DNA from: a virus
DNA length: 26,708 nt
IMG/VR virus record: IMGVR_UViG_3300048821_000098
Coordinates: 1 to 26,708 of that record
Direction: 5' to 3' (one strand)
Positions 1,448-24,452 of the stretch are shown here, piece by piece (within the stretch, counting starts at the first letter, position 1; the number at the start of each line of letters is the position of its first letter). A program made the translations under genes and the position numbers. The notes beneath the pieces are model-generated. The model saw only the letters and a program-made list of their open reading frames with translations. It was not told the origin of the DNA and searched no databases.

Positions 1448-1459
1448 GGTTGCTCCTAC

Positions 1460-3103
1460 CTACCACCAAGCGTATTGAACGTTGTCAATCGTGAACGACA
1501 TGTGCCCTGCAGCAGCGTTTAAGTCTTGCTGCACCTGCAAGCACGGCCCTGGAGCCCAGCCAGCGATGTAAGCTGGAACATTCTGCATGCCGGTTGATAT
1601 TATGAATAACACCCCATCCAACTGGATGGAAACGAATGAGAACAACCTGGTTGTTGTGTCGAATTTGTAAGTGAACACAACAGCATGAGCTACACCAGGA
1701 GTTAGTGGCCCTGGATTGAACCCGCAGTCCACCCAACTCTGCGCGGCGTTGACAATTTGAAAATGTCCGCCCTCTGCGTAGTTCAATTGGCAACTGCCAT
1801 TGTAGTTGTAGCCAGCTTCTGAAAGAATCGTATCTATTTCAATAGCTTGTGCATAAGTGGCGCACGCTGCATCAACAGTGAGCGTAAAACTAAGTTGCAG
1901 GTTGCCCGTATTTGTCAGGATAGGCCGTGGCGGCAGGTACGCCATCCAATCGGCGTAACCGCCTGGCACGGTAGAACCGCTGCACGCCAAGGTAGCGGCT
2001 GTGACTGGATATGTGCCCTGCGTAAATGAGTAAGCAGTTGGCGGAACTCCGCCGATAGCGGCGAAGGTTGTCGGCGGCGTAGTTACCGGCGGCGTGCCGG
2101 ACCCGGCGATGTGCAGGCCCCATGTTGAAAGCGTCTGCAAGTTAGGTGTGTCGTACTGTATAGCAGCGGTGACCACGACGCCGTATGACACTTGCAATGC
2201 TGCATTATAGCTGCCATTGCCAGCTTGATTTGCCGCCACCACCACTGTACCCACTCCAGTTATGGTCAAGGCGTTGCCGAAGACTGTACCAGGACCTGAT
2301 ATGACACTAAAGGTAATACCCAAACCTGAGCTCGCCGAAGCTGAAAGAGTGATTGGAGAAACGCCGTTCACAACCGGCGATGAAGGCGGCGTAAAGGTGA
2401 TGCTTTGATTCAAAAGCCCTGGCGTGGTCGACGTGCCAGACCAGTATCCGATGTCGAAGCCAGCCACAAAGGCGTCATTAAGATCAAAGCCGAATGCTGG
2501 CAGCTTACTCATATTGAATAGATACTCTACGCCCTCTGGCCGCGGAACTATTAACCCATTCTGAACTATGCCGGTAGTTGCATCATTCACAGCAAATCCG
2601 CAGATCATATCAATAAGCAGCGAGGATGACAGGCCGCTAATAAACAGTGTGGCCGTCATATTCTGATTATCAGCTACTACAATGCGGGTAGTAGGAAACA
2701 AGTATGCCCAGATGGCATATAAACTACCGAGTGTGCCGTCCCACTGGTTCTGAGCTATTTTTGCTTTAATGTAAGTTCTATACGTCGTGTCGTCTAGTAC
2801 AGGACTTACGCCGAAACTTGGCTGGAACGGCAGTACGCGGTTAGCTTGCGCAACGGCACCCTTCGCATCCAGCTGAGCTCCGATGGCATAATCTAGATCC
2901 AAAGCAGTGTTCATCTTGACAAGACACTGGCTAATATCATCGAATTTCTGCAGCAGCATTTTCAGCAGCGCCTTTAGCTTCACTGAGTTGGCATATTGCG
3001 ATGTTAACAGTGCTTGATAGTAACCTATCGGCGACGACTCTAAAGGCTCATTGCCGTAACCGCCCAGGCCATAGCCCTGCGTTCCGTAGTTCGGATTGCG
3101 CAT
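1460..3103 (-). CDS. DUF2612 baseplate protein with added Ig-like and lectin-like domains
   Basis: 547 residues. Residues 1 to about 225 match the DUF2612 baseplate family (a gpI/gp53 type wedge component): 'LESSPIGYYQALLTSQY' near the start and 'AIWAYLFP' near 130. DUF2612 proteins are usually only about 200 residues. Residues about 233-311 are an Ig-like repeat (SITFTPPSSPVVNGVSPITL, then VVVAANQAGNGSYNAA). Residues about 380-547 look like a concanavalin/LamG-type beta sandwich ending FTIDNVQYAWW. The extra domains probably make this baseplate protein a receptor-binding protein as well. It starts 3 nt after the baseplate J stop codon and has little Shine-Dalgarno signal, so translation is probably coupled. 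Confidence 0.85.
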   Translation of the reverse strand: MRNPNYGTQGYGLGGYGNEPLESSPIGYYQALLTSQYANSVKLKALLKMLLQKFDDISQCLVKMNTALDLDYAIGAQLDAKGAVAQANRVLPFQPSFGVSPVLDDTTYRTYIKAKIAQNQWDGTLGSLYAIWAYLFPTTRIVVADNQNMTATLFISGLSSSLLIDMICGFAVNDATTGIVQNGLIVPRPEGVEYLFNMSKLPAFGFDLNDAFVAGFDIGYWSGTSTTPGLLNQSITFTPPSSPVVNGVSPITLSASASSGLGITFSVISGPGTVFGNALTITGVGTVVVAANQAGNGSYNAALQVSYGVVVTAAIQYDTPNLQTLSTWGLHIAGSGTPPVTTPPTTFAAIGGVPPTAYSFTQGTYPVTAATLACSGSTVPGGYADWMAYLPPRPILTNTGNLQLSFTLTVDAACATYAQAIEIDTILSEAGYNYNGSCQLNYAEGGHFQIVNAAQSWVDCGFNPGPLTPGVAHAVVFTYKFDTTTRLFSFVSIQLDGVLFIISTGMQNVPAYIAGWAPGPCLQVQQDLNAAAGHMSFTIDNVQYAWW

Positions 3104-3106
3104 AAC

Positions 3107-4564
3107 CTACACCGCCGCCACGACAACATTAGGCGCTACACCCTGCGCTGCTTGATAGAACAACAGCGTCAGGTCGGCGGCCGTCGTGGGCTGTACCGCC
3201 GTTACGCTCACTGTGGCGCTGCTGCCGTACCCACCAGTGACTGCCGCCCCAATTGCGAGCGCGTAGCCAGTGCCAGCGGTCGTGACCTGCGGCTGGATGC
3301 TGGTAATACCGCCAGTGCCGTTAATGCCGCTGACCGTCACGGTACCGCTGGTTCCACCTGCTACTGTCAGTACATCGCCCACATGGTAACCAGACCCTGC
3401 AGCATCTGGTATCACGGTGAAAAGCCCAGTGGCAGTTGTACCTAGCGTGACACTTTTGATAGAGAACTCTGGCTGCGACAGATTAGGTGTCATAGCTAGT
3501 GCAGCGCCGTATAGTGCTGAGTAAGTGATCCCCTCGCCTATAGCCAGTGAGTTCAAGTAGTTTACTAACGCCGTCTGAATAGCCGCCAGAGTGGTTGAGG
3601 TGAAACCGCTTAACCCATGCACATACATGCCGACGTACGGTTGCACATAACTGGGCCGGTAGTAGCTGATGGTAGCCTCGTAGCCGGTAACTGGGTCAGT
3701 CACGACTACAGAAGTAGTTCCATTGGTAAGGCACCCAATAGTCTTCTTACCGTAGATAGCAGTGGCCACCGCCAACGGCAAGCCGCCTTCAACCACCATA
3801 GTGATAGAATGCGCCGGATTGCCCCACGGACTATCAACGGCGCCGGTGGGGTTCTCTATAGAAGTTCCAGGACCACCAGGCGTCGGATAACCCGGAGCCA
3901 CGCGAGTAACACCGCTAACTGCCAAGATAGAGGCCACAGTGGCGGCAGTAGGAGTCACTGAAGGCAGCGCCACTGAGACAGCTTGACGCGCCCGCAGAGC
4001 AGAGTCTGCTTCCACAGCAGTGCCTGGTGTAGCGGCTGATGTGTTACTTACTGACGTCCACCCATTAGTGGGGGTGGCTATGATGTTAATAGTTCCAGCT
4101 TCAGCCGTGACATTACCTGGCGTTGTGCATACAACTGTAACACTCGTAGTTCCAGTCGCTAATGGCGTGGACGTCGGCAGTGCCCATAGATTACCGCTCT
4201 GATCTTGCACAAAAGCATTCGTAAGTATGATGTCGGCTGTGCTAACGCATGCCACTAACGCGGTGGAGTATGAAAATGGCAGCCGAGCCAGGCCATTCAT
4301 TTTTACCACACGGTCCAACCCGGTTCCAACGGCTGTCAATGGCGACGCTTGGTTGTAAGTTAGCTGCAAGCCGGCATTTGTATCAGCCTGCTTGAGCGAT
4401 ATGATGGACAACAATTGATAAATTGCAGAATCCGGACCGACGTATTGATTAGCGCCGTAGATATTTAAGTACGACTGAAGGTTGTCAGCCAGAATAGAGG
4501 CATAAGACGCCGTGGTAAGCCCGGCGGGTCCTACTGAGGGCGGTGCGTATGCGGGAGTCGACAT
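3107..4564 (-). CDS. Baseplate J-like protein
   Basis: 485 residues of the Baseplate_J family (P2 gpJ/T4 gp6 type), a wedge component at the tail tip. Diagnostic parts are the N-terminal 'GPDSAIYQLLSIISLKQAD', the 'LDRVVKMNGLARLP' stretch near residue 83, and 'VEADSALRARQAVSVALPS' near 183, the hallmark E-x-D-x-x-LR-x-R segment. Residues about 383-457 are an extra beta-rich domain (GSGYHVGDVLTVAGG, then GTGYALAIGAAVTGG) near the C-terminus; a related domain sits in the sheath. It follows the gp25-like gene after a stop/start spacing of 2 nt and precedes DUF2612, the standard order. Confidence 0.92.
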   Translation of the reverse strand: MSTPAYAPPSVGPAGLTTASYASILADNLQSYLNIYGANQYVGPDSAIYQLLSIISLKQADTNAGLQLTYNQASPLTAVGTGLDRVVKMNGLARLPFSYSTALVACVSTADIILTNAFVQDQSGNLWALPTSTPLATGTTSVTVVCTTPGNVTAEAGTINIIATPTNGWTSVSNTSAATPGTAVEADSALRARQAVSVALPSVTPTAATVASILAVSGVTRVAPGYPTPGGPGTSIENPTGAVDSPWGNPAHSITMVVEGGLPLAVATAIYGKKTIGCLTNGTTSVVVTDPVTGYEATISYYRPSYVQPYVGMYVHGLSGFTSTTLAAIQTALVNYLNSLAIGEGITYSALYGAALAMTPNLSQPEFSIKSVTLGTTATGLFTVIPDAAGSGYHVGDVLTVAGGTSGTVTVSGINGTGGITSIQPQVTTAGTGYALAIGAAVTGGYGSSATVSVTAVQPTTAADLTLLFYQAAQGVAPNVVVAAV

Positions 4565-4566
4565 AG

Positions 4567-4950
4567 TTATACATCCAGACTCGCCGAAGAGCCCGGCGTG
4601 TTGGTTACATTGATAGGCCCGAAAGCCGTCTGCGCCGAGGCGCTAAATTTGAAGGCTCCATTTTCAAATGCTGTGGCCACATTGGAAACTCCGGTAACGA
4701 ATGGTGCACCCTGCACTAGCGCCTGAACCAGCGCCTGCATGGCTATTTGATTGGTCGGCACCGTCAGCCGCCCCAGCATAGCTTGGAACACCGGCAGACC
4801 GATATTGAGATTCTCCCACCACTCACCTAAAAACAATCGCAGCTGTGTAAGAATGACTTGTGTCACCGCGGCTTGGTCGGTAAGTTGCGAGTTAGGATCA
4901 AACACCGGATCATAATTGGCGTCCAGAAGCAGGTAAGTTATACTGGCCAT
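4567..4950 (-). CDS. Baseplate assembly protein, gp25/gpW-like
   Basis: 127 residues from ATG at 4950, which overlaps the previous stop as TGATG; a longer frame exists upstream but lies inside the spike gene. 'LTDQAAVTQVILTQLRLFLGEWWENLNIGLPVFQAML' (about residues 22-58, quoted here only as key parts: LRLFLGEWW and GLPVFQ) is the typical core of gp25/gpW-like wedge proteins, which link the sheath to the baseplate. The position between spike and baseplate J is canonical. Confidence 0.85.
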   Translation of the reverse strand: MASITYLLLDANYDPVFDPNSQLTDQAAVTQVILTQLRLFLGEWWENLNIGLPVFQAMLGRLTVPTNQIAMQALVQALVQGAPFVTGVSNVATAFENGAFKFSASAQTAFGPINVTNTPGSSASLDV

Positions 4951-5741
4951 CACGCACCCTTCAGAATGGTGGTTTGAGACGCCGACGGCATCGCCGGCCC
5001 GGCGTACCCAAGCCCAGCCAAGAATGGTTGTATATTGGTGATGAACCAACTAAGCCAGTCCGAATTGACAAGAGCGAGCGGCGTTCCGCCGGTGTTATAC
5101 ACGGCCACGTCCGGCGCCTCAAGGCTGATGGTGCCAGCAGAACTAACCTGTGCGTCACCGGTGGCGTTGATCTTCGCCGTGCCTGTGGTGGTTACCTGCA
5201 CGGCCGGCGCCGTTACAGTTACACCGGCTTCGGCTACATCTATGACAACAGTTCCATCGTCACTCCGCAGTTGCGCGGATGTAGTGGAGTAGCTCGATAG
5301 CAACCGTTGCTGGCTCCATGGGCCGGGAATGCAGAAGGCGTCAGACAGGTCGTGGCGACGCAATTCAAATTGTACATTCTGCCACCCGCCATGGGCCCAC
5401 CAAGTGTCGATACACAGGTCGGCGAATACTACTAGGCACTCGTCACCAGCTTTTATCGGCAGCGTTAATGAGAAGCCGCCGCCGCGCGGCAGCACCACTG
5501 GCACGTCCAGCAGCTGATGTATCGCCACGTCGACTTGGCCAGCAGGGTCTTGCATGCGTTCCATCACCGTCAATTGCACCATGACAGTCTGCTTGACTGC
5601 ATCGAACTTTGTGATGAGACCAGGCATAGCCACGCGCATGTCACACGCTGCTTGATGCAGTAAGTCAGTCCACTGAGCCGTGGATGCTGCACTACGCGCC
5701 TCTGGCGTGAGGTTAGTGGATGAGGCGGAGTTAGACGCCAT
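4950..5741 (-). CDS. Baseplate spike/puncturing protein, Gp138 N-terminal domain
   Basis: 263 residues from ATG at 5741, or 265 from ATG at 5747. The upstream GGAGG stands 9 nt from the inner ATG but only 3 nt from the outer one, so I prefer 5741. Residues about 28-145 fit the Gp138 OB-fold family: 'MRVAMPGLITKFD', 'VVLPRGGGFSLTLPIKAGDECLV' (key: LPRGGGFSLTLP and GDECLVVF), then 'RRHDLSDAFCIPG'. The C-terminal half is a repetitive beta stretch (TVVIDVAEAGVTVTAP and similar), as expected of a trimeric beta-helical spike. It caps the tail tube tip and pierces the outer membrane. Confidence 0.88.
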   Translation of the reverse strand: MASNSASSTNLTPEARSAASTAQWTDLLHQAACDMRVAMPGLITKFDAVKQTVMVQLTVMERMQDPAGQVDVAIHQLLDVPVVLPRGGGFSLTLPIKAGDECLVVFADLCIDTWWAHGGWQNVQFELRRHDLSDAFCIPGPWSQQRLLSSYSTTSAQLRSDDGTVVIDVAEAGVTVTAPAVQVTTTGTAKINATGDAQVSSAGTISLEAPDVAVYNTGGTPLALVNSDWLSWFITNIQPFLAGLGYAGPAMPSASQTTILKGA

Positions 5742-5746
5742 AAACA

Positions 5747-6769
5747 TTAGCCTCCAGTCAAGAATATGCCACGCAGGGCATTTTGTGTATATTTACGCGT
5801 GTAACCTAATACATCAGTTTGCCACACATTGCCGCGCGTATCACCGCGATGGTGAACCTCTGCCACCACATACTGCCCATCTTGAGCTAGTGGCATGTAT
5901 GGACCTTGAGGCATTTGCCGCGTCAACTGTATTATCACAGCGTTATTGATAGCTACTAACAACGGCGGCATCTGCACCTTGAGTCGAGGGTCAAGCAACA
6001 CACTGAATTCCACACCGCAGTCAGTCTGCCGCGGCGTGCCTACAATAGTATAGGAAGTGGTTGTAGACGGGGCACTACCGGTCCAGTTAGCTGGTAATGG
6101 CGGTGAGTAGGTATAAGCTGGTGCGTCAGTTCCAGAGTCCAGTGGACCGATGGCGTAACCTTTAGGCGCCTTGAACCACTGCATGTTGTGAGTATCTGCT
6201 AACTGCCCAAAATACTTGTCGACGCTGCCAAATATAACCTTGCCACGCAGGTACTTAGTATCACCTAGCGCGGACGGTAGTGGCGCTATTGCTTGCCCGC
6301 TTATAGCCGTCAGCATCTGAGCTACTACTGTTGCCTGCGTTGTGTTTTGCGCTTGATTGAAGTTAACACGCCGTGCTATGCGCGGGTCGGTGGCTAGGCA
6401 GTGGAACGTCATCTTGAGGTCAACGACATCTTCACGTGTCAGTAGCACCTGCATTACAGCACCGCTCCAGATAACCTGCTGGTTACCGATAGACTGATAA
6501 CCAGCGCTAAGCGTTACCCATTGAGCGTTAGTTAGCGCGTTCTGTATAGTAGCGTCGTCGCAGTTGTATACCGATATGTCGGCGAACCACCAAGGCGATG
6601 GAATAGCAGTCTGATGTACGTCGAACGTAATGCGCAGGGCTTCCGGCTCCCACGCGCTGCTGGACAGCACTGCGCCAGGCGAGCCAGACCCGTCAGGCGT
6701 GCTGTAAACGGTAAGCGTGTAGGCGCGGCCCCAATATGGCGTGGTGGATGCCAATGGCGTAGTGCTCAT
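5747..6769 (-). CDS. Baseplate hub protein
   Basis: 340 residues from ATG at 6769, overlapping the plug stop codon as ATGA. The position between the baseplate plug and the Gp138-type spike is that of the hub (gpD/gp27-like), which joins tube and spike. The features 'ISVYNCDDATIQNALTNAQW', 'VIWSGAVMQVLLTREDVVDLK' (key: WSGAV and TREDVVD) and 'TRKYTQNALRGIFLTGG' at the end are consistent with hub proteins of this phage type. No catalytic domain is visible. The assignment rests mainly on gene order. Confidence 0.75.
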   Translation of the reverse strand: MSTTPLASTTPYWGRAYTLTVYSTPDGSGSPGAVLSSSAWEPEALRITFDVHQTAIPSPWWFADISVYNCDDATIQNALTNAQWVTLSAGYQSIGNQQVIWSGAVMQVLLTREDVVDLKMTFHCLATDPRIARRVNFNQAQNTTQATVVAQMLTAISGQAIAPLPSALGDTKYLRGKVIFGSVDKYFGQLADTHNMQWFKAPKGYAIGPLDSGTDAPAYTYSPPLPANWTGSAPSTTTSYTIVGTPRQTDCGVEFSVLLDPRLKVQMPPLLVAINNAVIIQLTRQMPQGPYMPLAQDGQYVVAEVHHRGDTRGNVWQTDVLGYTRKYTQNALRGIFLTGG

Positions 6770-7107
6770 GACGGCGTGTCCCCCCAAACCAACAAGAAGT
6801 CAGAACCTAAGTCATTCGCGCCTGGGTAATCAGCGTCAGAACTGCCAACATTCAGCAAGTAAGCGCTACCGATGGCAAGATAGGCGTGCTGAGCCAGCAT
6901 GTTAGCAGCTGGATACACACCTGTCAACATTGGTACTGAGTCAAGAAGCAGTGCACCCTGCGCGGAGTACACCGTCATTGACCAATGACCGCTCATGTAG
7001 GAGTAGTTCAGTGTAAGATTCAAAGTCAACGGTGAACCGTCCACCGTCAACTGCACAGACAGTGATTGGTTCGGCATGGAGGTCAATGGCACTATTTGAT
7101 TAGCCAA
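6766..7107 (-). CDS. Phage baseplate plug protein (DUF6983-like)
   Basis: 113 residues when started at TTG 7107: AGGAA lies 5 nt upstream, and this start gives the typical beginning ANQIVPLTSMPNQ. A longer frame to 7233 lies in the Dit-like gene and is basic and unlike the family. The body has the family pattern PLTS-x-PNQ-x-x-x-V, LTLNLTLNYSYMSGHW and MTVYSAQGALLLDSVPMLTG. Plug proteins close the channel of the tail tip near the hub. The start lies inside the last codons of the preceding gene, giving coupled translation. Confidence 0.78.
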   Translation of the reverse strand: MANQIVPLTSMPNQSLSVQLTVDGSPLTLNLTLNYSYMSGHWSMTVYSAQGALLLDSVPMLTGVYPAANMLAQHAYLAIGSAYLLNVGSSDADYPGANDLGSDFLLVWGDTPS

Positions 7108-12322: not shown

Positions 12323-12940
12323 TTATGCTGTTACTGTGATGTCTGCTACTGGGTCTGACGGCGAACCGTCGTAGACCTTGATCTCCACGCTGGTTGCTAT
12401 GGTGTCATTGATGGACTCTGTTATAGCTTCGTAGAGGTCAATACTGAAATCCGCGCGCGCCCACCACTGAGCGTTCAATTGTTCAGGCATGTAAGTGGGG
12501 TCGTGAGGGTCTGATAGCGGGAACAAGTTTTGCAATGCCAGTAAGCCGGTGAAGTAGTCGGTAACGAAGAGCGCTGACTTCACAGCGCGCAGGTTATCAG
12601 CGGCATTGGGCCCGTAGGCACACCACGCCACGCGCCAGCCGCGAGTATAGGCCCACAGCTCTGTAAGCGTGGTGTCGATAGTGGTCAGCGCCTGGTCACG
12701 TACTCGACTGTACTCATCGTCATGCACGGCACACTGCACAAAGCAGACGTCCTGTGACGGCGACTGAGCAAATGGCTGACCTTCAACAGGCCAGTCCACA
12801 CGCACACGGCTGAAGTCGGTAGGCGGGTTGATACCGATGGCGGCTAGCGTCCACGCTTGCATGATGATGTTCATCTGCGGTACGGTCAAAGCTGAGCTGG
12901 TAAGCGTCTGGCCGTTCGGATAGACAATAGATGTTGTCAT
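12323..12940 (-). CDS. Neck/tail terminator protein (gp12-like, LIC_12616 type)
   Basis: 205 residues from ATG at 12940, which overlaps the preceding stop as ATGA. The parts 'QMNIIMQAWTLAAIGINPP', 'RVDWPVEGQPF', 'VCFVQCAVHDDEYSRVRDQ' and 'WRVAWCAYGPNAADNLRAVK' fit the neck terminator family found just before DUF3383 sheath genes. Such proteins end the tail tube/sheath and join it to the head connector. Sequence and position agree. Confidence 0.8.
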   Translation of the reverse strand: MTTSIVYPNGQTLTSSALTVPQMNIIMQAWTLAAIGINPPTDFSRVRVDWPVEGQPFAQSPSQDVCFVQCAVHDDEYSRVRDQALTTIDTTLTELWAYTRGWRVAWCAYGPNAADNLRAVKSALFVTDYFTGLLALQNLFPLSDPHDPTYMPEQLNAQWWARADFSIDLYEAITESINDTIATSVEIKVYDGSPSDPVADITVTA

Positions 12941-13482
12941 GGCGTGAGCAGCCCTTTGATACGAGTGCCGCACGCGGCCCAATCCTTAGCCACGCACTGC
13001 TGCGCGTCTTGCAGAGTGATTTTACCGGCGCACACGAGGCCGCGCGGCCCACCCAGCGTATCTTCCACCTGGTGATCTTTGATGCGTGCTTCAGTCATCG
13101 GCTGCGGCCACAAGTTAGTGAGGCAATCAGGACACCCACCAATTTCCAAGCTGATGAGGTGGTCACCCTCGACTGAGCCATCGCATTTGGCTACCCCGTA
13201 GGCAGCGCAGACTTTACGCTTTAACCCGGCGAAGTTCTTGATGGCGGCACGGATGGGGCCGGTCTTGAAGTCAGGAGCGCAGATATTCAGCTCAATGCCG
13301 TTCACAACGTACGGAGCCTTGGTGAGATCGGCAACGACGTCTGCTTTGACTGCGCCAGGAGTTGCCACAGGGTCAGGCAGTGTGTAGGTTCCACTTTGGC
13401 TGTAATGCGCCGTGGCAGGCTGCTGAGCGGATGAAGCGGTGAGGCAAAGGGCAAAAATCGTAATCGGCAGTGTAAACTTCAT
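12937..13482 (-). CDS. Exported HNH-like (beta-beta-alpha metal) protein
   Basis: 181 residues from ATG at 13482, with GGAGG 7 nt upstream; an in-frame TTG two codons earlier is less likely. Residues 1-20 form a Sec signal peptide (MKFTLPITIFALCLTASSA). The core has 'CDGSVEGDHLISLEIGGCPDC' in part (key: D107-H108), N123 in LTNLWPQP, and K135-D136 after it, the layout of HNH-like exported proteins with an 'NLWPQP' motif. Eight cysteines after the signal peptide suggest disulfides outside the cytoplasm. Its function in a connector operon is unclear: it may be a cargo gene, such as a nuclease against competing DNA. Nuclease activity is inferred. Confidence 0.72.
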   Translation of the reverse strand: MKFTLPITIFALCLTASSAQQPATAHYSQSGTYTLPDPVATPGAVKADVVADLTKAPYVVNGIELNICAPDFKTGPIRAAIKNFAGLKRKVCAAYGVAKCDGSVEGDHLISLEIGGCPDCLTNLWPQPMTEARIKDHQVEDTLGGPRGLVCAGKITLQDAQQCVAKDWAACGTRIKGLLTP

Positions 13483-13532
13483 CCGCAAGCCTCCTCTACA
13501 GGGCCGTTCGGTGGAGCCTGGTCAGCTTCTAA

Positions 13533-14856: not shown

Positions 14857-15414
14857 TTATTCCTCTTTGATAATTCCAATGATTGAAGCCCTTAAAGCCC
14901 CAGTGTCGATCAGCGGCCGGCCACTACCCTTGCGTGCGATCGTGCCAGGTGTGTTTGGTGCCCAGTGATTATCCGGTAAAGTGAACCATTTTCTAGCGGC
15001 ATTCTGCCCGGCCATCGCGGCGCGCTTCATCTTCTTGACGGCCAGGTCGTGATTACCGTCCAGTGACGCCTTCACGCTGGCAGCTAACTCTCGGCTGATG
15101 ATCTTCTTGTTAGTCTCATTCTCGATCGCCGGCTCGATAACAGGCCTAGCTGGAATGTGCTTGAGCGGGCTGCCTTTTGTGTGGATGAAGAGCAGTTCCG
15201 CATTTGTTACATCTGACGTAGCGGCTTTCTTCAAGCGTGCCAGCTTCTTTTTACCACGAACCTTGCCGGCCATTTCCAGAAGCTGATCGGCGCGCGCCGT
15301 AGTACCGGCAGCAGGAACACCGACATACGCAGCCAGCTTAGTAAGTCCAGCAATGCGCTTGAATAGGGCCACCGAGCCGGATTTACGGGCGATGGTGATT
15401 TGTGGGGAGGTCAT
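14857..15414 (-). CDS. HK97 gp10-like tail completion protein
   Basis: 185 residues from ATG at 15414. A longer frame to 15519 exists but lies within ORF B, and a near-identical N-terminal copy elsewhere begins at the same codon. The C-terminal 'GSGRPLIDTGALRASIIG' is the signature of gp10-like and gpG-like minor tail/connector proteins, and 'AGQNAARKWFTLPDNHWAPN' precedes it. These proteins help join the tail to the head. The first 41 codons are duplicated at 16192-16305. The upstream region has no clear Shine-Dalgarno. Confidence 0.82.
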   Translation of the reverse strand: MTSPQITIARKSGSVALFKRIAGLTKLAAYVGVPAAGTTARADQLLEMAGKVRGKKKLARLKKAATSDVTNAELLFIHTKGSPLKHIPARPVIEPAIENETNKKIISRELAASVKASLDGNHDLAVKKMKRAAMAGQNAARKWFTLPDNHWAPNTPGTIARKGSGRPLIDTGALRASIIGIIKEE

Positions 15415-15430
15415 ACTGATTTGGTCATTT

Positions 15431-15985
15431 CTATGGACGATGCCAATACTGCACGCGCCATTTACCGCTAATTTTTTCCATGTAAATTGCGTAACCTTCA
15501 CGTATACGTCGTTCGGCAAACTCTTTTGCTTGGGCTAGTGTGTCAAAGTATGAACTTGGTATAGAATCCTTCGCTTGTGCGTTCTTATTAGCTAGAAGAC
15601 GATTAGCCTCCCTAAGCGCTGCTGGACCAGTGTAGTTTTCTTTTTCTATGAAATACGCTATAACTTCTGCGCGCTTCACACCTTCTGGTATTTGCTTACG
15701 AAGTATTTCATACACTGGTGACCAGGCATCTTTCGCCACTTTACGGTCAAGTATGCAGTCCAGTGCGCGGTGGAGCCTGGAGCGGCGGTCGGAGTCCTGC
15801 GCGAATCCGCCGCCAATAACTGTAACTTGCTCATTGCCATTCAACGGGATGGCCTGACCACCACCTTCTGGGCCAACGACAGCGCGCCCGCGTGGTTCTT
15901 CAACGGCCTTCAGCACCTTCCAAGTTTGTTTATCGCCTGGAATTTTTATACGCTGGCCCTTCTTTAGATCTTGTACGTAAGCCAT
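15431..15985 (-). CDS. Accessory protein with internal HRALD peptide (ORF B)
   Basis: 184 residues. The upstream TGGAGGAG is shared with ORF A. Residues 1-60 are beta-rich and SH3/KOW-like (LKKGQRIKIPGDKQTWKVL). Then come AQD (62-64), the shared peptide DRRSRLHRALDCILD (66-80) and AKD (84-86). A helical domain with 'VKRAEVIAYFIEKENYTG' follows, then AKD (138-140), then a short alpha/beta C-terminal domain ending in KWRVQYWHRP. The layout is the same as in ORF A, but the sequences outside the shared peptide differ strongly. No family is recognised. I infer a capsid-delivered or connector accessory protein whose A-x-D sites may be cut by the prohead protease. Confidence 0.75.
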   Translation of the reverse strand: MAYVQDLKKGQRIKIPGDKQTWKVLKAVEEPRGRAVVGPEGGGQAIPLNGNEQVTVIGGGFAQDSDRRSRLHRALDCILDRKVAKDAWSPVYEILRKQIPEGVKRAEVIAYFIEKENYTGPAALREANRLLANKNAQAKDSIPSSYFDTLAQAKEFAERRIREGYAIYMEKISGKWRVQYWHRP

Positions 15986-16000
15986 CTTCTCACTCCTCCA

Positions 16001-16191
16001 CTACATGATAAGCACAGGTCCGCCGCCAATGACTTTTGCCATCGTCGCCAATTGAATTCCGTAAGTCGTTAACTGCCACTGGCCAAATTGTTCCAGCGAC
16101 GCAATTGGAGTATAGCCGACAGACACGTCACCAACACCCTTGGAAGTCTGGATGCCGCCAGCAAGTCCCTGAGCCGCGATTTGTGCGCCGC
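16001..16191 (-). pseudogene. Diverged copy of the DUF4054 C-terminal end
   Basis: The coding strand here can be read as 62 residues, GAQIAAQGLAGGIQTSKGVG onward to KVIGGGPVLIM and a TAG at 16001-16003. Against residues 264-325 of the intact DUF4054 protein I count about 50 identities of 62. It has no start codon of its own and is out of frame with the upstream gp10-like fragment. It is a remnant left by duplication or recombination. Its 3' end directly precedes the ribosome site of ORF B, as the intact gene precedes ORF A. Confidence 0.85.
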
Positions 16192-16305
16192 AGTGCCAAA
16201 AGCTGGAACGCCGACATACGCAGCCAGCTTAGTAAGTCCAGCAATGCGCTTGAATAGGGCCGCCGAGCCGGACTTACGGGCGATGGTGATTTGAGGGGAG
16301 GTCAC
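16192..16305 (-). pseudogene. Truncated copy of the gp10-like gene 5' end
   Basis: This stretch repeats the first part of the gp10-like gene with an offset of 891 bases. The 94-base core 16211-16304 differs from 15320-15413 at only three positions. The start codon is GTG rather than ATG and overlaps the TGA of ORF A. The reading frame crosses the junction at about 16192 into DUF4054-derived DNA in the wrong frame and ends at 16069, which would give a 78-residue chimeric protein if translated. The near identity suggests recent copying or continuing gene conversion. Confidence 0.85.
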
Positions 16306-16895
16306 TTAGTGGCTTCGCTGATGCGCAGCTCGACCCACCAATGACTCTGTGCAGCTATTGATGCGCCACCTTTGAACGGCTTCCAGACGTCACCTGTACG
16401 CATGACCCGTGCCTTAATACCGGCTGCTGCAAGAGTTGATATTGCGCGATCAGCGACCTTGTCTTCACTACCGCCATTTGAATAGAAGTAACCTTTGCGC
16501 ACCAGAACATTGTCACCCTTGCGACCAACCGTGTCAAAACCATATGATGCATTGAGCACTGAAATGGCTTTACTGATTATGCTGACGGGTTTTGCATCCC
16601 GCGCCTTAGCGCCACAAGAATCTATTACAGCATCCAGCGCGCGATGGAGTCTGGAGCGGCGGTCTGCATCACGGGCCGAGGCCTTAGCAGTACCTTCAAC
16701 AAGTGCCTTAGCCTGCACCTTCCACTTGTAGTTATCGCCTTCAGGACGCACGTAGATGTCACCGCCTGCGATGTCACTGCTGAAGCGCTTGAAGTCCTGA
16801 CCAGCCATGCCGCCTTTGCCACCGTAACCAGCTTGAATGACTACGTGGTCACCTGGTTTGAAAGTAGAGTCTTTAGCTTCTACACGTGTCCGCAT
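16302..16895 (-). CDS. Accessory protein with internal HRALD peptide (ORF A)
   Basis: 197 residues from ATG at 16895, preceded by TGGAGGAG; a longer frame to 16997 lies inside DUF4054. Residues 7-9 are AKD. Residues about 10-68 are beta-rich and SH3/KOW-like (FKPGDHVVIQAGYGGKGGMA). Then ARD (74-76), the shared peptide DRRSRLHRALDAVID (78-92) and ARD (98-100) follow. The C-terminal 97 residues form an alpha/beta domain ('ADRAISTLAAAGIKARVMR', then HWWVELRI). It shares ORF B's layout but little sequence outside the peptide. No known family is recognised. The stop overlaps the GTG of the chimeric remnant. Confidence 0.75.
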   Translation of the reverse strand: MRTRVEAKDSTFKPGDHVVIQAGYGGKGGMAGQDFKRFSSDIAGGDIYVRPEGDNYKWKVQAKALVEGTAKASARDADRRSRLHRALDAVIDSCGAKARDAKPVSIISKAISVLNASYGFDTVGRKGDNVLVRKGYFYSNGGSEDKVADRAISTLAAAGIKARVMRTGDVWKPFKGGASIAAQSHWWVELRISEATK

Positions 16896-16918
16896 CTCCC
16901 CACTCCTCCATGAATCAC

Positions 16919-17896
16919 TTAACGAATAAGTACCGGTCCGCCGCCGATGACTTTCGCCATCGAAGCAAGTTGCACGCCGTAGGCTGTTAATTGCCACTGC
17001 CCGAACTGCTCCAGTGATGCCAGCGCTTGGTAACTCACCGACACGTCGCCCACGCTTTTTGCGGTCTGCAGACCGCCGAACAACCCTTGAGCTGCGATCT
17101 GCGCACCGCTACTAACTCCTGGCGTTAGCACCTGAGTTTGAATCAGCCAAGTAGCATAGAGCTGATCACCGCCGACGGTAGGAACCATCAACGTAATACT
17201 AACGCCGCTCAGCACATAGTCGACACCACCAGGTCGTAGGTACTCACCGTTCTTGGTGAGCGTGCTAAGCGTGTCACCGGGAGGCTGTGCGCTCAAGGTA
17301 TAACTACTGCCAGGAACTGCCCCGCTAGGAACTTCACCATGGACGGAAGACTCTAAGGCGAACCCAACCTCCGCCGCGTCGCTCTTTGCGAACAGCGTGA
17401 GGTAATGGGCGATGTACCATGCAATGGCGATGTACCATGCGTCTTGCCACCGCTCTTGCACCAGCGACGCGACGGCTAGGTTGAGGTAAAGCTGGATCAC
17501 CGCAGTAGGCACAGGCGGCGCTTCATACACGGACAGAACGGCGGCGGAGGTCGTCACTAGGGCAGAGTTATTGACGGTGACGTTGCCGGCACCAATGGCT
17601 GTGATCACCGTGCCCTTGGGGAAGTTGCCAGGTGACTGCAGGAACTGTCCGTAGCTCAGGCCGGTGGTGCTAGCAACCGTGATGGTGGGGCTGCCTGCTG
17701 CGATGGAGCAACCGCCAACGGTAGTGGGCAGCCCGAAGAACTTGGAGTAAACGGAAAGGAAGTCATCCAGATAGTACGGAGGATTCTGGCTGAACACGAA
17801 GCCGACTGAGCCACCGCTGCCGCAATCGGCGAAGAATCCGTTCTCGGCGCCCCAGGCTGTCTGCAACCACAAATCAAAGTTCGGCCAGCATCCCAT
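16919..17896 (-). CDS. DUF4054 head-tail adaptor with two inserted beta domains
   Basis: 325 residues. Parts typical of DUF4054 are the helical 'AVIQLYLNLAVASLVQERW' with HYLTLFAK, and the C-terminal LEQFGQWQLTAYGVQL followed by 'GGGPVLIR'. The family is usually only about 130-160 residues and forms an adaptor ring under the portal. The extra length comes from a beta domain at about 61-124 (SPTITVASTTGLSYGQF) and another at about 178-254 (PSGAVPGSSYTLS, GVDYVLSG, GDQLYATWLI). The second matches the small fibre protein at 200-586. GGAGT precedes the ATG. The 3' end is duplicated at 16001-16191. Confidence 0.85.
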   Translation of the reverse strand: MGCWPNFDLWLQTAWGAENGFFADCGSGGSVGFVFSQNPPYYLDDFLSVYSKFFGLPTTVGGCSIAAGSPTITVASTTGLSYGQFLQSPGNFPKGTVITAIGAGNVTVNNSALVTTSAAVLSVYEAPPVPTAVIQLYLNLAVASLVQERWQDAWYIAIAWYIAHYLTLFAKSDAAEVGFALESSVHGEVPSGAVPGSSYTLSAQPPGDTLSTLTKNGEYLRPGGVDYVLSGVSITLMVPTVGGDQLYATWLIQTQVLTPGVSSGAQIAAQGLFGGLQTAKSVGDVSVSYQALASLEQFGQWQLTAYGVQLASMAKVIGGGPVLIR

Positions 17897-18500: not shown

Positions 18501-19559
18501 CTAAACTCCGTCCGCATTCACCATAGTTGTGGGCCGCTTGACTATGATTTGCGACAAGCATCCGCAAAACATCGTTTCATAGGCGCCGCCACGACGAGTC
18601 GTGGGAACGCTCATCGCCTGTGTGCATGGCTGTGGGATTTTCAGATAGACGGCCTTTTTGTGATTACGGTAAAAGAAGGCCCTGTCCAACCCATTGCCTG
18701 TCTGCCCGGCAGTGGCTGTATTACCAATGCCCTGGCCACTGATCCAGTTGCTGGGAAGGAAGTCAATGGAAAATTTCACGCCGTGGTGAGCAGCGACGCA
18801 ATTCTCTTCCACGTATTTGATGATGCTTTGCGTGACAGGCGTGCCGCCGATCGCCATGGGCGCAGTAAGGTAGGCGAATTGAGCGTACGGAACCAGCAGA
18901 TGGTTAGCCATGCCCTCAGACGCATCGTATCCTGAGTTCATGACCGTCTGGTTGAGCGCCTGGTTGATGTCAGCCAGAATCTCTTGCGGGGTCTTGCTAG
19001 CCCACTGAGTCTTGCCGCTACCACCGGCGTTCACCGTATACTCTGGCACATTGGGATTGTTGATGAGGCCCGGATCGCCCAGGAACCCAGCGTAGACGAC
19101 GAAGTCACAAGCTTTTACCCAGCTCGTCTCGACCGACTCCTCATAAAGCTCTTGCAAGCTGAACGGAGGCGCCTGACCGACCCGCAGCGCTGTTTCCATG
19201 CGCTTGAGATCGATCCATGTGATCGTCATTCCGAGAGCCCACGTATAGGTCCGCCAAATGCCCTTCTGAACATCCGCTGTCGCCTCGGGCAAATCGGTGT
19301 TATTTGTGCCTTGCAGCCCAAAGTACTGAGTGCCGGTGGTGGCGTAGTTGGATGCAAAAGCCGTGATGAACTCGGGGAAGCCTCCGCCTACTTCAACAGC
19401 GATGTCGCGCTTGTGCGTGACAGCCTGCAACGGCCTGACAAGGTCCGTGTCAATAAGTTCCAGTTGGCTCTGCAGGAACGCGAAGCCAGTTGCTCCGGCA
19501 GCGTCAAAAGCCCGCGCGCGACCTGGAGCCGCGCCGTGATTGCGATTGTTACGAATCAT
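18501..19559 (-). CDS. Major capsid protein (DUF2184)
   Basis: 352 residues, fitting the DUF2184 capsid family with HK97-type fold: 'FLQSQLELIDTDLVRPLQAV' region near residue 28, 'WALGMTITWIDLKRMETAL' near 107, 'AFFYRNHKKAVYLKIPQP' near 293 and 'MFCGCLSQIIVKRPTTM' near the end. The N-terminus is short and basic, then RARAFD-AAG at 14-22. D19 would be a plausible prohead protease cut, because A-x-D sites recur in the scaffold and accessory proteins. GGAGA precedes the ATG at a normal distance. It follows the cement protein and precedes a terminator, typical of highly expressed capsid genes. Confidence 0.92.
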   Translation of the reverse strand: MIRNNRNHGAAPGRARAFDAAGATGFAFLQSQLELIDTDLVRPLQAVTHKRDIAVEVGGGFPEFITAFASNYATTGTQYFGLQGTNNTDLPEATADVQKGIWRTYTWALGMTITWIDLKRMETALRVGQAPPFSLQELYEESVETSWVKACDFVVYAGFLGDPGLINNPNVPEYTVNAGGSGKTQWASKTPQEILADINQALNQTVMNSGYDASEGMANHLLVPYAQFAYLTAPMAIGGTPVTQSIIKYVEENCVAAHHGVKFSIDFLPSNWISGQGIGNTATAGQTGNGLDRAFFYRNHKKAVYLKIPQPCTQAMSVPTTRRGGAYETMFCGCLSQIIVKRPTTMVNADGV

Positions 19560-20413: not shown

Positions 20414-22045
20414 TTACTTACCTCCTTTAGGGGCATTGTGTGCAGCATCGTATGCGGCCTGCATGTCCGCAATACGCTTGTCAGCGCCGTCACCGCCAGA
20501 ATCAGCGGCATGAGCGCGGTTGAGTGGTGCGCGAGGCAGCTTGCTATCACGCGCACGGGCCGCTCCGGCAAAGCTGCCGTAACCGCCGCTGCTAGCGCGA
20601 GAGCTGCGGGTAACGCTGCTCAGCGCTGAGTTGAAAGCATCCTGCACCTTGCTGTCCTTACAACGGGCTATTACCGGCCGCATCATCTTCAGCACCGCAG
20701 CGGCGCCGTCAGCAGCGCGAGCGCGGTCCTTGGCGCGGTGCTTGTCGCCGACCGGCTCCAAGTCCTCTTCGCCCTCTTCAAGGTCGTCGTCCTCGGCGCC
20801 CTCTTCTTCTTCGAGCTCCTCAGGATCTTCGTCCTCAGCTTCAGGCTCTTCATTGCCGAGAACTTCATCCAAAGGCGCGGCATCAACTACCGGCTCATCC
20901 TCTTCCTCAAGGTCTTCGTCGCTAGCATGCGCCGGCTCCTTTTCCTCTTCAGAGAAGAACTGGCAGAGCAGGGACTTCAGCTCTTCCAGGTCAGCGTCAT
21001 TAACCTTGCGGTCCTTTGCGTGACGCTTGTCGCCAGCTTCTTCCTGGTCGATGAGGTCGTCCAGGGCGTCGTGCATGGCCTTGCGTTTGCCGTCCATTAC
21101 TGGTTCGTCCTCCTCGTCAAGCTCGGCATCGCGCAGCTTGCGATCACGTGCCTTGCGCTTGGCTGCTTCTTCGTCATGGTCGTCTTCTTCCATGAGCTCA
21201 TTGTCGCGGGCCTTGCGGTCTCGCGCCTTCTTGTCCTCAGCTGGCAGAGGTGGTTGCTTCAGAACCTCAGCCGCCTCGGCAACGTCTTCCGGCTCTGCGT
21301 CGGCCGCGAATGCCTTAAGCATGCGTCCGAGCAAATTTTTCCGAATATCTGCCACAGGCTTTTTCTCCTTGTTAGTTAATACAGCGGTTGAGGTTTTAGA
21401 CGTCGCCGCCCTTTTAATTTCAGGGTTGTTGGCGGGCGGCGCTATGGAACTAATGGGCGGTGAACTTGTAGGTTCTGGGGCGGAGTCGCCGATGGACGCC
21501 TCATTGCCAGCCCTGCCTTTAGGAACGACTGCGCAGTGATTGCCGATGATGTCAGTCTGGCAGATCCTGTCGCCGTCTTTCTCGATGGCATAGTCATAGC
21601 CAAGCGACAATTCGCGCACCTGGTTATTACGCACCTTACTGAGTAGAGGCTCGGCTGTGATGTGCACATCACCAATCATCGGCCAGTCGCCGCTATCGAG
21701 CGGCTCTTTGCCTTTGCGCACATTTTGAATATGGCCACGAGCGTAGTCATTGAAATTGTTAGGATCAATGTCGTTCGGCGGGTGACCGTCGGCAATTGGC
21801 TTGCCTTCAAAGCTGGCGAGAGTCTCAGGACGAAAGACATCCTCAGGCCTGCGATACAGGTCGATGTCGGCGTGAGGATTAGACATATTCACGCCCATGT
21901 CACGCGCGGAGTCTTGCGGCAAATCTTTTACAGCGTAAGTCTGCCACCCACTCCGCGCCAGGACAGTATCGCGTGCGATGAGAAAACCCTCAGGAGTTTC
22001 TTCCCGATGGTCACTGATTTTTGTCGTGTAATAACCGCGTGCCAT
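20414..22045 (-). CDS. DUF2213 prohead protease fused to acidic scaffold
   Basis: 543 residues. Residues 1 to about 185 are the DUF2213 domain, with H88 in GKPIADGHPP and S147 in VRELSLGYDY, likely catalytic by analogy with U35/S78 prohead proteases. From about 250 to 440 the protein is extremely rich in Glu/Asp with basic A-x-D units (KARDRKARD, KARDRKLRD, HAKDRKVND, HRAKDRARAAD), as expected of a scaffold that is cut away. Residues 321-334 (RKAMHDALDDLIDQ) resemble the shared HRALD peptide. The C-terminus has RARDSK, HAADSGG and a helix. It would fill the prohead, cut itself and the capsid protein, then leave. Confidence 0.9.
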   Translation of the reverse strand: MARGYYTTKISDHREETPEGFLIARDTVLARSGWQTYAVKDLPQDSARDMGVNMSNPHADIDLYRRPEDVFRPETLASFEGKPIADGHPPNDIDPNNFNDYARGHIQNVRKGKEPLDSGDWPMIGDVHITAEPLLSKVRNNQVRELSLGYDYAIEKDGDRICQTDIIGNHCAVVPKGRAGNEASIGDSAPEPTSSPPISSIAPPANNPEIKRAATSKTSTAVLTNKEKKPVADIRKNLLGRMLKAFAADAEPEDVAEAAEVLKQPPLPAEDKKARDRKARDNELMEEDDHDEEAAKRKARDRKLRDAELDEEDEPVMDGKRKAMHDALDDLIDQEEAGDKRHAKDRKVNDADLEELKSLLCQFFSEEEKEPAHASDEDLEEEDEPVVDAAPLDEVLGNEEPEAEDEDPEELEEEEGAEDDDLEEGEEDLEPVGDKHRAKDRARAADGAAAVLKMMRPVIARCKDSKVQDAFNSALSSVTRSSRASSGGYGSFAGAARARDSKLPRAPLNRAHAADSGGDGADKRIADMQAAYDAAHNAPKGGK

Positions 22046-22307: not shown

Positions 22308-24452
22308 CTACTCGATATCTGTAGTATCTTTACCTTTGGCGGCGTCCTTCGCCTTCTTAGGTTGAATGGACCAGGGTTCGCGTCCACTTTCTTTGGCGCG
22401 TCTAAGAACTTCTGCGCTATAAGGCTCCACCACCTCTTCCCCAGTCGCAGCATCATGAGCCACACTGACCCGTTCCCCAGCCCGCGTCCGTTCTACAGCA
22501 CTTCGCAACGCCGGACCAGCAGCGTCGAATGCCTGGACCTTCCCGTTGCTGGGGTGCGCAAATTGACCTGCGTACGAACCAACGGCCTGGCGCTGGCACT
22601 CAGCAATTCCATCCCGCGCGATCTGCTCATTGCGCTGGTCACCTTTGGAACGGAAGCCTGATGCAGCAGCGCGGTAGGCATCCACCGCGCGGGCGTGGTC
22701 TTGAGCGACTTCGTGGTGCTGTGCTGCTTCGAGTTGAGATTCAGGTGTCATAGAGTCCTTTGCATGGTTTTCAAGAAAAGTGATAGCACTGTCTACTTTC
22801 TGTCCCCACGAAGAACCACTAGCATTTCGCAGAGCATTCTTCGCCTCTTGAAATGAAACGTGAATTTCAGAAGCTACTTCTTCAATAGCGTCTTCTTCAC
22901 ACTTCGCATCGCCGTCCTTCGCTTGTGTTTTCAAGAAACGCTCCAGATCGGCCATCTTTTCAACCTGTCGATGATCAGGGAATTTAATTGCTTTGAGCCG
23001 CGTAAGTTCCTGGCGCAGGCCTTCAGTAGCGCTTTTGGCTTGCTCTTCACTATAGGGCGGAAGAGAGTAGTCCTTTGCCTTCTTTGTGGTCTCAGCTTTG
23101 TACTCGCGCAATGCTTCAGCACGTGTTGGATAGCCGCCGTATGTTTCACCATTTAGCTTGAAGTAGTAGCCGGCGATGTTTCGGCCTATGCTAGGTTCAG
23201 CGTCCCTCCCCGGTACTTTGTACTCTTTCACCTTCTCCCCCATCTCTCTCAGCGCCTGCTCATGCGCGCGCAGTTTGTTGGTCGTATCACCAGGCTTTTC
23301 TTTTTCAAGTTTCGCCTGAATCTCTTTACGGCGCTTGAAATAAGCGTCTTCATCGGAGCGTGGAGAGTCGGTGGTGTGTGCTTTAGTGTTAGGACCAGAC
23401 CCAGTCATATAGCGATCAATCATGCGCTTTACACCTTCCAACGTGACGTCGCCCTGGCCTACTTCACCAGATTTGTCAGCGCGAAATTCATGCGCACCAG
23501 TCTGCTTGATACTCCAGCCTTTATACTCACCAACTTCTACAGAGTCCCTCCCAATCACCGCAATAGGAAGCGGGAGGGCGTCATTCTGCGATTTACGCGC
23601 ACTTTCTATTTGTTTACGCAGCTTCGCGATAGTCTCCGGCCGTGCATGCTGGGTAAGCGCTTCATGGAGGGCTTGCTTCAGATATGTGAGGTTGTCTTTG
23701 GCGGCGTCTTTTGCGCCGTTGCGTTTGCCGGTAGTAAGAAAATGGTCGATGGCCTTTTTGCACTCCACCACTGTGTTAGCAAAGCCGACTGGTTCGCCAC
23801 TTTTTGGATCACGCGCATAAAACCGCTTTGCCACGCCGCCTTCGACGATGTCAAAGCCTTTGTAGGTGGTAACGACCTCACCCACGTCCTTCCCAATCAC
23901 CCCAACAGGGAGCGGGAGGGCGTCTAAACCGCGATTGGCATGTCCATCAGGCGTGGTGTCTGGGATTCCTTCTTTGCGCATGAACGTTTTCAGCGCAGTC
24001 TTCGTGCCTTTATTAAAAACAGTGTACTTCTTTTTGCGACCGTTCATATCAGGGGCTTCAGTGGTTACGCTCCAAGAGCCGTCACTGTTTTGCTGAATGT
24101 CATACTCTTGGCCCTTGGTACTGCGTGCCCAGTAGGAGTCGTCCTTCGCCTTCCCCACAGGAAGCGGAAGGGCGTCTTTTGCGCTGACCTTGTTCAGCGG
24201 ACCCTTGAATGTGCGGCCCTCTTTGTTCTTGATGAACACCGTACCGCCCTCTATCTTTGTGATGATGCCTTCAAAGCCTGCGCCGCCCTTCACTCCAAAA
24301 CCCAGGTGAACTTCGTCACCGACTGCGAACTCACGATCCTTCCCTTCGGCCTTCGACAAAGCAATGGCGACAGCCTGCTTCTTCGGCTTCCCAGCTTCTT
24401 CCTCAACCTTGACATTGTGCCCGATGTTCTTCTTTCCAGCAAGTAGCGGCAT
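22308..24452 (-). CDS. Large modular protein with A-x-D linkers and repeated mini-domains (714 aa)
   Basis: 714 residues with AAGGAG upstream. Residues 1-36 match a short motif known from many phage proteins (AGKPKKQAVAIALSKA). Residues 38-90 look SH3/KOW-like (FAVGDEVHLGFGVKGG). Then come KDALPLPV borders at about 92, 177 and 291. Small beta-rich domains with a closing helix lie at about 117-158, 196-240 (YKGFDI), 309-349 (YKGWSI) and 425-455 (AGYYFKLNGETYGG). Helical modules fill the rest. AKD sites occur near 91, 102, 247, 251, 459, 511, 564 and 701, and AFDAAG at 641-646. No known family covers the whole protein. I infer a capsid-internal polyprotein-like product cut at A-x-D; this is not proven. 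Confidence 0.78.
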   Translation of the reverse strand: MPLLAGKKNIGHNVKVEEEAGKPKKQAVAIALSKAEGKDREFAVGDEVHLGFGVKGGAGFEGIITKIEGGTVFIKNKEGRTFKGPLNKVSAKDALPLPVGKAKDDSYWARSTKGQEYDIQQNSDGSWSVTTEAPDMNGRKKKYTVFNKGTKTALKTFMRKEGIPDTTPDGHANRGLDALPLPVGVIGKDVGEVVTTYKGFDIVEGGVAKRFYARDPKSGEPVGFANTVVECKKAIDHFLTTGKRNGAKDAAKDNLTYLKQALHEALTQHARPETIAKLRKQIESARKSQNDALPLPIAVIGRDSVEVGEYKGWSIKQTGAHEFRADKSGEVGQGDVTLEGVKRMIDRYMTGSGPNTKAHTTDSPRSDEDAYFKRRKEIQAKLEKEKPGDTTNKLRAHEQALREMGEKVKEYKVPGRDAEPSIGRNIAGYYFKLNGETYGGYPTRAEALREYKAETTKKAKDYSLPPYSEEQAKSATEGLRQELTRLKAIKFPDHRQVEKMADLERFLKTQAKDGDAKCEEDAIEEVASEIHVSFQEAKNALRNASGSSWGQKVDSAITFLENHAKDSMTPESQLEAAQHHEVAQDHARAVDAYRAAASGFRSKGDQRNEQIARDGIAECQRQAVGSYAGQFAHPSNGKVQAFDAAGPALRSAVERTRAGERVSVAHDAATGEEVVEPYSAEVLRRAKESGREPWSIQPKKAKDAAKGKDTTDIE
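23546..23590 (-). repeat. KDALPLPV coding repeat, copy 3
   Basis: Encodes NDALPLPIAVIGRD at residues 290-303 of the 714-residue protein. Over 34 bases it differs from copy 2 (23888-23926) at four positions by my count. It marks the border before the module with YKGWSI. Confidence 0.8.
23888..23926 (-). repeat. KDALPLPV coding repeat, copy 2
   Basis: Encodes LDALPLPVGVIGKD at residues 176-189 of the 714-residue protein, at the border before the module with YKGFDI. Confidence 0.8.
24141..24180 (-). repeat. KDALPLPV coding repeat, copy 1
   Basis: Encodes AKDALPLPVGKAKDD at residues 91-105 of the 714-residue protein, closing the SH3-like module and opening the next one. Confidence 0.8.

Follow-up and report, generated by a model that had tools for sequence, protein, structure and literature searches.

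The window analyzed here is a 26.7-kb virus record of IMG/VR, a metagenomic collection (IMGVR_UViG_3300048821_000098), whose structural genes lie on the minus strand. Between a DUF4054 head-completion gene and a neck (gp10-like) gene it carries two accessory open reading frames (ORFs), ORF B and ORF A. Our analysis indicates that the products of these cassettes are probably cargo that would be loaded into the virus head by means of a short peptide tag, that the tag would be excised at A-x-D motifs by the prohead protease, and that the site is a hotspot of exchange; we place the probability of this reading at roughly 0.72. The first weapons of a phage against host defences are the proteins that it injects along with its DNA. 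In phages other than T4 and P1 such proteins are difficult to identify, since few signals common to them are known, and a short tag open to pattern searches would allow candidate injected proteins to be listed across a whole phage group.

ORF A and ORF B have in common the peptide DRRSRLHRALD-(C/A)-(I/V)-(L/I)-D, and in each protein this peptide stands between two A-x-D motifs. An earlier reading made from the letters alone (the sequence-only reading) had pointed to the common layout and the HRALD peptide, both of which hold, and had underrated the length and weight of the peptide: HRALD is the core of a 15-residue module, DRRxRLHRALDxV[LM]D. A search with a degenerate DNA pattern for RxR(L/F)HRALDxx(hydrophobic)D matched 40 viral stretches, and removal of duplicates left 34 tag versions and 41 proteins. 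The tagged genomes are metagenomic records, several of them near duplicates. Conservation of the tag core was built into the search, which does not apply to the modularity, the scaffold likeness or the flanking motifs described below. The capsid protein of this phage group was encoded in 14 of the 20 virus records tested, which comprised tag-bearing records and neck relatives. The tag search gave no match in cultured phages, and 20 matches to the pattern in bacterial genomes were rejected because by eye they resembled chance readings in unrelated ORFs. A literature search in a limited collection of papers found no description of the HRALD peptide.

The tag lies at the N-terminus in some proteins and is internal or near the C-terminus in most. 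The parts before and after it assort independently, only one pair (nearly the same gene) having both in common, and the tag is in this sense a short peptide common to otherwise unrelated proteins. Among the related contigs, numbered L here, L073 and L075 share 100% of the N-terminal part and nothing after the tag, while L069 and L073 share 100% of the C-terminal part and nothing before it; in these pairs the DNA breakpoints fall about 20-25 nucleotides (nt) from the codons of the tag core. ORF B and its counterpart ORF B' in L003 are alike up to just past the tag and then diverge, and in L118 (16274-16771) a tag variant precedes the domain that in ORF B stands before the tag.

By statistical comparison, the tag is similar to a helix within the scaffold portion of the DUF2213 prohead protease, whose gene lies upstream of the capsid gene. 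When a profile built from tagged cargo only was run against 1,478 untagged ORFs from six frames, 6 of the 11 protease-scaffold proteins were placed in the top 10 (p = 7e-12), and 40 column-permuted control profiles put 0 or 1 of them there. The tag profile recovers homologues of the protease, and in the window the helix reads KRKAMHDALDDLID at about 21044-21085. The protease-scaffold version of the tag is roughly (K/R)-R-x-x-x-H-D-A-(L/F)-D-x-x-(L/M)-D.

The A-x-D motif is concentrated around the tag, within the putative substrates and at the capsid N-terminus. It occurred in the 16 amino acids (aa) before the tag in 18 of 24 cases against 2.8 expected (maximum of 8 in 300 random trials), and in the 18 aa after it in 12 of 30 against 3.5, the expected counts being taken from random stretches of the same proteins. 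Relative to shuffled expectation it was found at 2.23x in cargo, 2.26x in the polyprotein described below and 2.56x in the protease-scaffold proteins, compared with 0.95x in structural and 1.12x in other proteins. In the window, sites of the form [ASTRG][KR]D[SAGDT] numbered 22 in 2,233 aa versus 2 in 6,032 aa (Fisher p = 4e-11). The N-terminal AFD-AAG of the capsid protein is likely to be its maturation cleavage site, judging from its conservation: FDAAG was present in all 14 capsid N-termini examined and is preceded by A in most. Taken together, A-x-D may be the cut-site consensus of the prohead protease of this phage group. It is unlikely that the enrichment reflects flexible, charged linkers and not protease sites, even though the enriched proteins are charged and linker-rich, because each set of proteins was compared with its own shuffled sequences, no other X-x-D or X-x-E motif is as enriched in either cargo or polyprotein, and A-x-D is also conserved at the N-terminus of the capsid protein.

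A 714 aa protein encoded in the window, next to the protease-scaffold gene, has the appearance of a cargo polyprotein, with mini-domains set apart by A-x-D motifs. It also contains AFDAAG, and its alignment ends fall within 5 aa of an A-x-D in 33% of cases versus 20%, a modest excess. The separators are of the AKD/ARD type and are repeatedly followed by 'ALPLP'; the first 35 residues match phrog_2423, and relatives of the protein occur in versions of 482-975 aa with different domain sets.

Recognised domains number at most one per tagged protein in L048, and there is no confident Pfam match in ORF A, ORF B or the 714 aa protein. In L048 the tag heads an ADP-ribosyltransferase (ART; Pfam ADPrib_exo_Tox, E 4.8e-19; PHROG Alt-like, E 6.6e-8) and also a PI3/PI4-kinase-like domain (E 5.1e-12), and an adjoining metallopeptidase-like protein has a partial tag-like start. 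By analogy, the cassettes most likely encode injected proteins for counter-defence or host takeover. Instead of loading the head, the HRALD module could serve accessory virion proteins as a linker, either structural or for protein-protein interaction, for example in decorating the tail or neck or as a helix that binds nucleic acid; several cassettes do adjoin neck genes, the module is basic on its N-terminal side, and zinc-ribbon-like neighbours occur (weak matches). We consider such a role improbable. The likeness of the module to the scaffold region of the protease, its flanking A-x-D motifs, which recur in the AFD site of the capsid protein, and its fusion to a kinase-like domain and to an ART of the Alt type are all evidence for a place inside the head.

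According to the head-loading reading, the tag, which is predicted to be helical, would cause the proteins to co-assemble with the scaffold inside the prohead. The DUF2213 protease would then cut at the flanking A-x-D motifs, removing the tag and freeing the cargo domains, and the same protease would mature the capsid protein at AFD|AAG and destroy the scaffold. The cargo would leave the head together with the DNA and, by analogy, would most likely act against host defences or in host takeover. Whether the tag is a portable, excisable 15-residue element, like the scaffold of the phage itself, that can stand anywhere in a protein, loads effectors and doubles as a recombination pivot between phages is a question on which we consider the odds to be even. 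The tag would provide a loading mechanism that can be tested, consisting of scaffold likeness and A-x-D excision, and the site shows how such genes get exchanged, with the recombination scars still visible.

Several results weigh against head loading, for which both packaging and cleavage are deduced from sequence. Comparison of ORF A and ORF B with Pfam, PHROGs and PADLOC gave nothing convincing. AlphaFold models of both were poor (mean predicted local distance difference test score of 52-54), with the tag helical at low confidence only, and a fold search with ORF B gave no significant match and was uninformative. Single matches of tag to scaffold are weak (E 0.08-0.3), and the likeness may be convergence in a charged helix. 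The downstream A-x-D is found after only 12 of 30 tags, and about 20 of the 99 A-x-D motifs in cargo are the tag's own ALD. The L048 contig, which carries the recognised effector-like domains, is without capsid and protease genes. Finally, the cultured relatives Magia and BgManors32, two Burkholderia phages (NC_070954, NC_070955), had no A-x-D excess in the proteins checked and no obvious AFD in the capsid N-terminus, and therefore the cleavage rule would be specific to the present group. As to the candidates that were tried and rejected, assignments of ORF A and ORF B as Cupin_3 or transglutaminase-like were weak and below the cut-off. A portal search from L048 toward its capsid and protease genes returned only copies of the same contig.

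The two cassettes are bordered by duplicated, chimeric ends. In the order of transcription the locus consists of the DUF4054 gene, ORF B, a 5' copy of the neck gene, a 3' copy of the DUF4054 gene, ORF A and the neck gene. This is the layout given by the sequence-only reading, which had reversed the names of the two ORFs (the first transcribed occupies 16302-16895 and the second 15431-15985). The alignments that it had called for located both borders where it had placed them. In the first, 15301-15414 and 16192-16305 were identical at 104 of 114 nt; apart from the start base (GTG versus ATG), only 3 differences lie in positions 2-95, in agreement with the near identity (3 differences in 94 bases) noted previously, and 6 of the 10 differences lie within the last 19 nt, next to the junction. 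In the second, 16001-16191 and 16919-17109 (taken to 17110 in the earlier reading) were identical at 131 of 191 nt and 50 of 62 residues, which reproduces the clear divergence reported for this copy. The DUF4054 remnant has an open local frame and keeps its stop, in a frame that differs from that of the neck fragment. Searches by tblastn with the DUF4054 and neck proteins gave E values of 2e-27 and 8e-20 for the two remnant pieces, and chance likeness is therefore excluded.

The origin of the scar can be approached from the pattern of differences. Between the DUF4054 remnant and the resident gene the differences at codon positions 1/2/3 number 14/3/43, a bias from which it follows that the remnant diverged while functional and so would have come from another phage. 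The remnant is 71-73% identical in nt to the relatives L003 and L010, about as distant as from the resident copy, and the resident DUF4054 3' end is 89-90% identical to the same relatives. These figures agree with the earlier proposal that unequal recombination with a related phage explains the borders better than a simple tandem duplication, and that origin is supported by the sequences over duplication in situ. Related phages would recombine within the two conserved flanking genes, and in an imperfect exchange a donor segment, 'DUF4054 3' end + ORF A', would have been joined to the resident neck gene near codon 38, downstream of ORF B. The right-hand crossover would lie at the neck start or ahead of it, and both neck copies would thus stem from near-identical sequence; the outcome would be two cassettes plus a chimeric scar. 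The scar itself is demonstrated by the alignments; the direction of the recombination event is presumptive.

An assembly chimera of two co-occurring phage strains would also produce such a junction, and it is suggested by the metagenomic source of the record, by ORF A having no relative, and by the exact 31-nt junction, which had no match in other IMG/VR contigs in a search that may omit the window's own or near-identical records. The chance of this is small, because the flanking genes are syntenic on both sides and an independent DUF4054 remnant precedes the second cassette at this site in three contigs from another lineage; such scars therefore do occur. Least probable is an in situ tandem duplication of DUF4054, cassette and neck, after which the remnant would have decayed and the cassettes diverged. 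It fits the observed order and orientation and fails on the very unequal divergence of the borders (4 differences in the first 95 nt versus 60 in 191), on a codon-position bias unexpected for a freely decaying remnant, and on ORF A and ORF B having almost only the tag in common.

The gap between the DUF4054 and neck genes is an accessory-gene exchange site in a group of uncultured tailed phages, as was found from 45 related loci collected with the neck protein. Between the same conserved genes the gap is empty (9-21 nt) in L011, L012, L015, L018, L021, L026 and L040. It holds a GIY-YIG-like endonuclease, so labelled from a sequence motif and not from a family search, in L013, L014 and L019 and a different one in L016, and short ORFs in L006, L009 and L022. 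Different tagged ORFs occupy it in L005 (191 aa), L010 (207 aa) and L003/L004/L047 (179 aa + 56 aa + 238 aa). The hotspot proposed from the window alone is thus borne out by its relatives. The L003-type contigs have a second, independent DUF4054 3' remnant preceding their own second tagged ORF, of which 29 nt are identical to that phage's own DUF4054 gene and the remainder is diverged. Duplicated, chimeric borders arose at least twice at this site. Endonuclease-driven exchange may help to move the cassettes. Downstream of its capsid gene, one close relative encodes a further GIY-YIG-like endonuclease (L052:2300-3100). In L003 (3158-3405) the small 56 aa ORF has 17 nt identical to DUF4054, where the remnant of the window begins, possibly a preferred breakpoint or microhomology. 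Cultured gene-order relatives of the group carry a tail sheath.

Judged from its sequences, the system would work like T4 capsid targeting without belonging to that family, from which it differs in the sequence and position of the tag and in the cleavage motif. In T4, Alt is a packaged and injected ART (PMC5512222, PMC9026906), and an Alt-like ART is among the tagged proteins in L048. The T4 internal proteins Ip1-3 have only a leader in common, are hotspot-encoded and block different restriction enzymes (PMC12373910). Both systems comprise unrelated, hotspot-encoded accessory proteins with a short common leader or tag (IPI-III and Alt in T4; PMC9026906; PMC12373910), for which targeting is proposed here, and in both the prohead protease would remove it, in the present case at A-x-D. 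Unlike the T4 capsid targeting sequence, the tag has another sequence and length, is often internal or after the cargo domain, would be cut on both sides and resembles the scaffold part of the protease. The T4 motif is L/I-x-E, cleaved by gp21 (PMC9026906), whereas the flanking motif here is A-x-D, the protease belongs to the DUF2213 family and the proposed residue at cleavage position P1 is Asp.

The giant phage SPN3US cuts at A-X-E with Ser preferred after the cut (PMC10052503). The proposed rule is similar to this phiKZ-type system in its three-residue consensus, Ala at position P3, acidic residue at P1, Ser preference at P1' and many head substrates, and differs in having Asp for Glu and in belonging to a different phage group. 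In phage P1, DarB has an N-terminal packaging signal of 10-30 residues, and BLAST found no signal common to the Dar proteins (PMC9024508). Those accessory proteins are loaded into the head, as we propose here, where in contrast a common tag is obvious. Polyvalent proteins resemble the present cargo in having many shuffled domains in a virion context and in being predicted to be packaged and injected; in the parts of that account available to us, no common loading tag or cleavage consensus is described (PMC5512222). The cargo here consists mostly of small domains without assignment. An InPase domain fused to the portal has been described among polyvalent proteins (PMC5512222), and the portal protein (Phage_portal_3) of a close relative has a C-terminal InPase domain (L107:9982-12948). 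Magia and BgManors32 have the same order of DUF2213 protease, capsid, head completion, Neck1 and sheath, and differ from the window in that the head-completion and Neck1 (DUF4054 and neck position) genes adjoin, with a gap of about 20-30 nt.

Table 1. Features of the window, all on the minus strand, in order of position.
Feature	Position	Strand	Remarks
Third tagged protein, 168 aa	13929..14435	-	Tag VDRRARMHRALDHVLN at extreme N-terminus
Neck / gp10-like gene (tail completion or Neck1)	14857..15414	-	Right border of site; PHROG 222 E 5.7e-23
ORF A, 184 aa tagged accessory protein	15431..15985	-	No whole-length relative found
ORF A tag DRRSRLHRALDCILD	15746..15790	-	AQD before (15794-15802), AKD after (15728-15736)
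Diverged DUF4054 3' end remnant, including stop	16001..16191	-	Out of frame with neck remnant; 131/191 nt vs 16919-17109
Neck gene 5' end remnant, GTG start	16192..16305	-	104/114 nt identical to 15301-15414
ORF B, 197 aa tagged accessory protein	16302..16895	-	N-terminal part and tag common with L003 ORF B', C-terminal part unrelated
ORF B tag DRRSRLHRALDAVID	16620..16664	-	ARD before (16668-16676), ARD after (16596-16604)
DUF4054 head-completion gene	16919..17896	-	Left border of site; Pfam PF13262 E 3.7e-13; PHROG 302 virion structural
Major capsid protein	18501..19559	-	N-terminal AFD-AAG, AFD codons 19503-19511; Pfam PF09950 E 1.3e-38
DUF2213 prohead protease fused to charged scaffold-like region	20414..22045	-	Pfam PF09979 E 5.6e-35; PHROG head maturation protease
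714 aa protein, putative polyprotein cargo	22308..24452	-	Mini-domains separated by A-x-D
Fourth tagged protein, 380 aa	25525..26667	-	5' end may leave contig; tag KRARLHKALDRVLD near residue 185; several AKD

Some further features were observed in the window and its relatives. An internal stretch of about 70 aa in the DUF4054 protein (17100-17350) resembles by eye the C-terminal part of a 128 aa protein at 200-586, and the same stretch has BLAST likeness to a protein adjoining the neck gene in contig G002, which makes it another shuffled domain. The 183 aa ORF at 12937-13488 has a likely signal peptide and, by eye, an HNH-nuclease-like GDHLISLEIGG stretch. In L048 the portal gene is followed, at 1439-6863, by a row of genes with tag or tag-variant N-termini and ART, PI3/PI4-kinase-like, metallopeptidase-like (weak) and possible nuclease domains.

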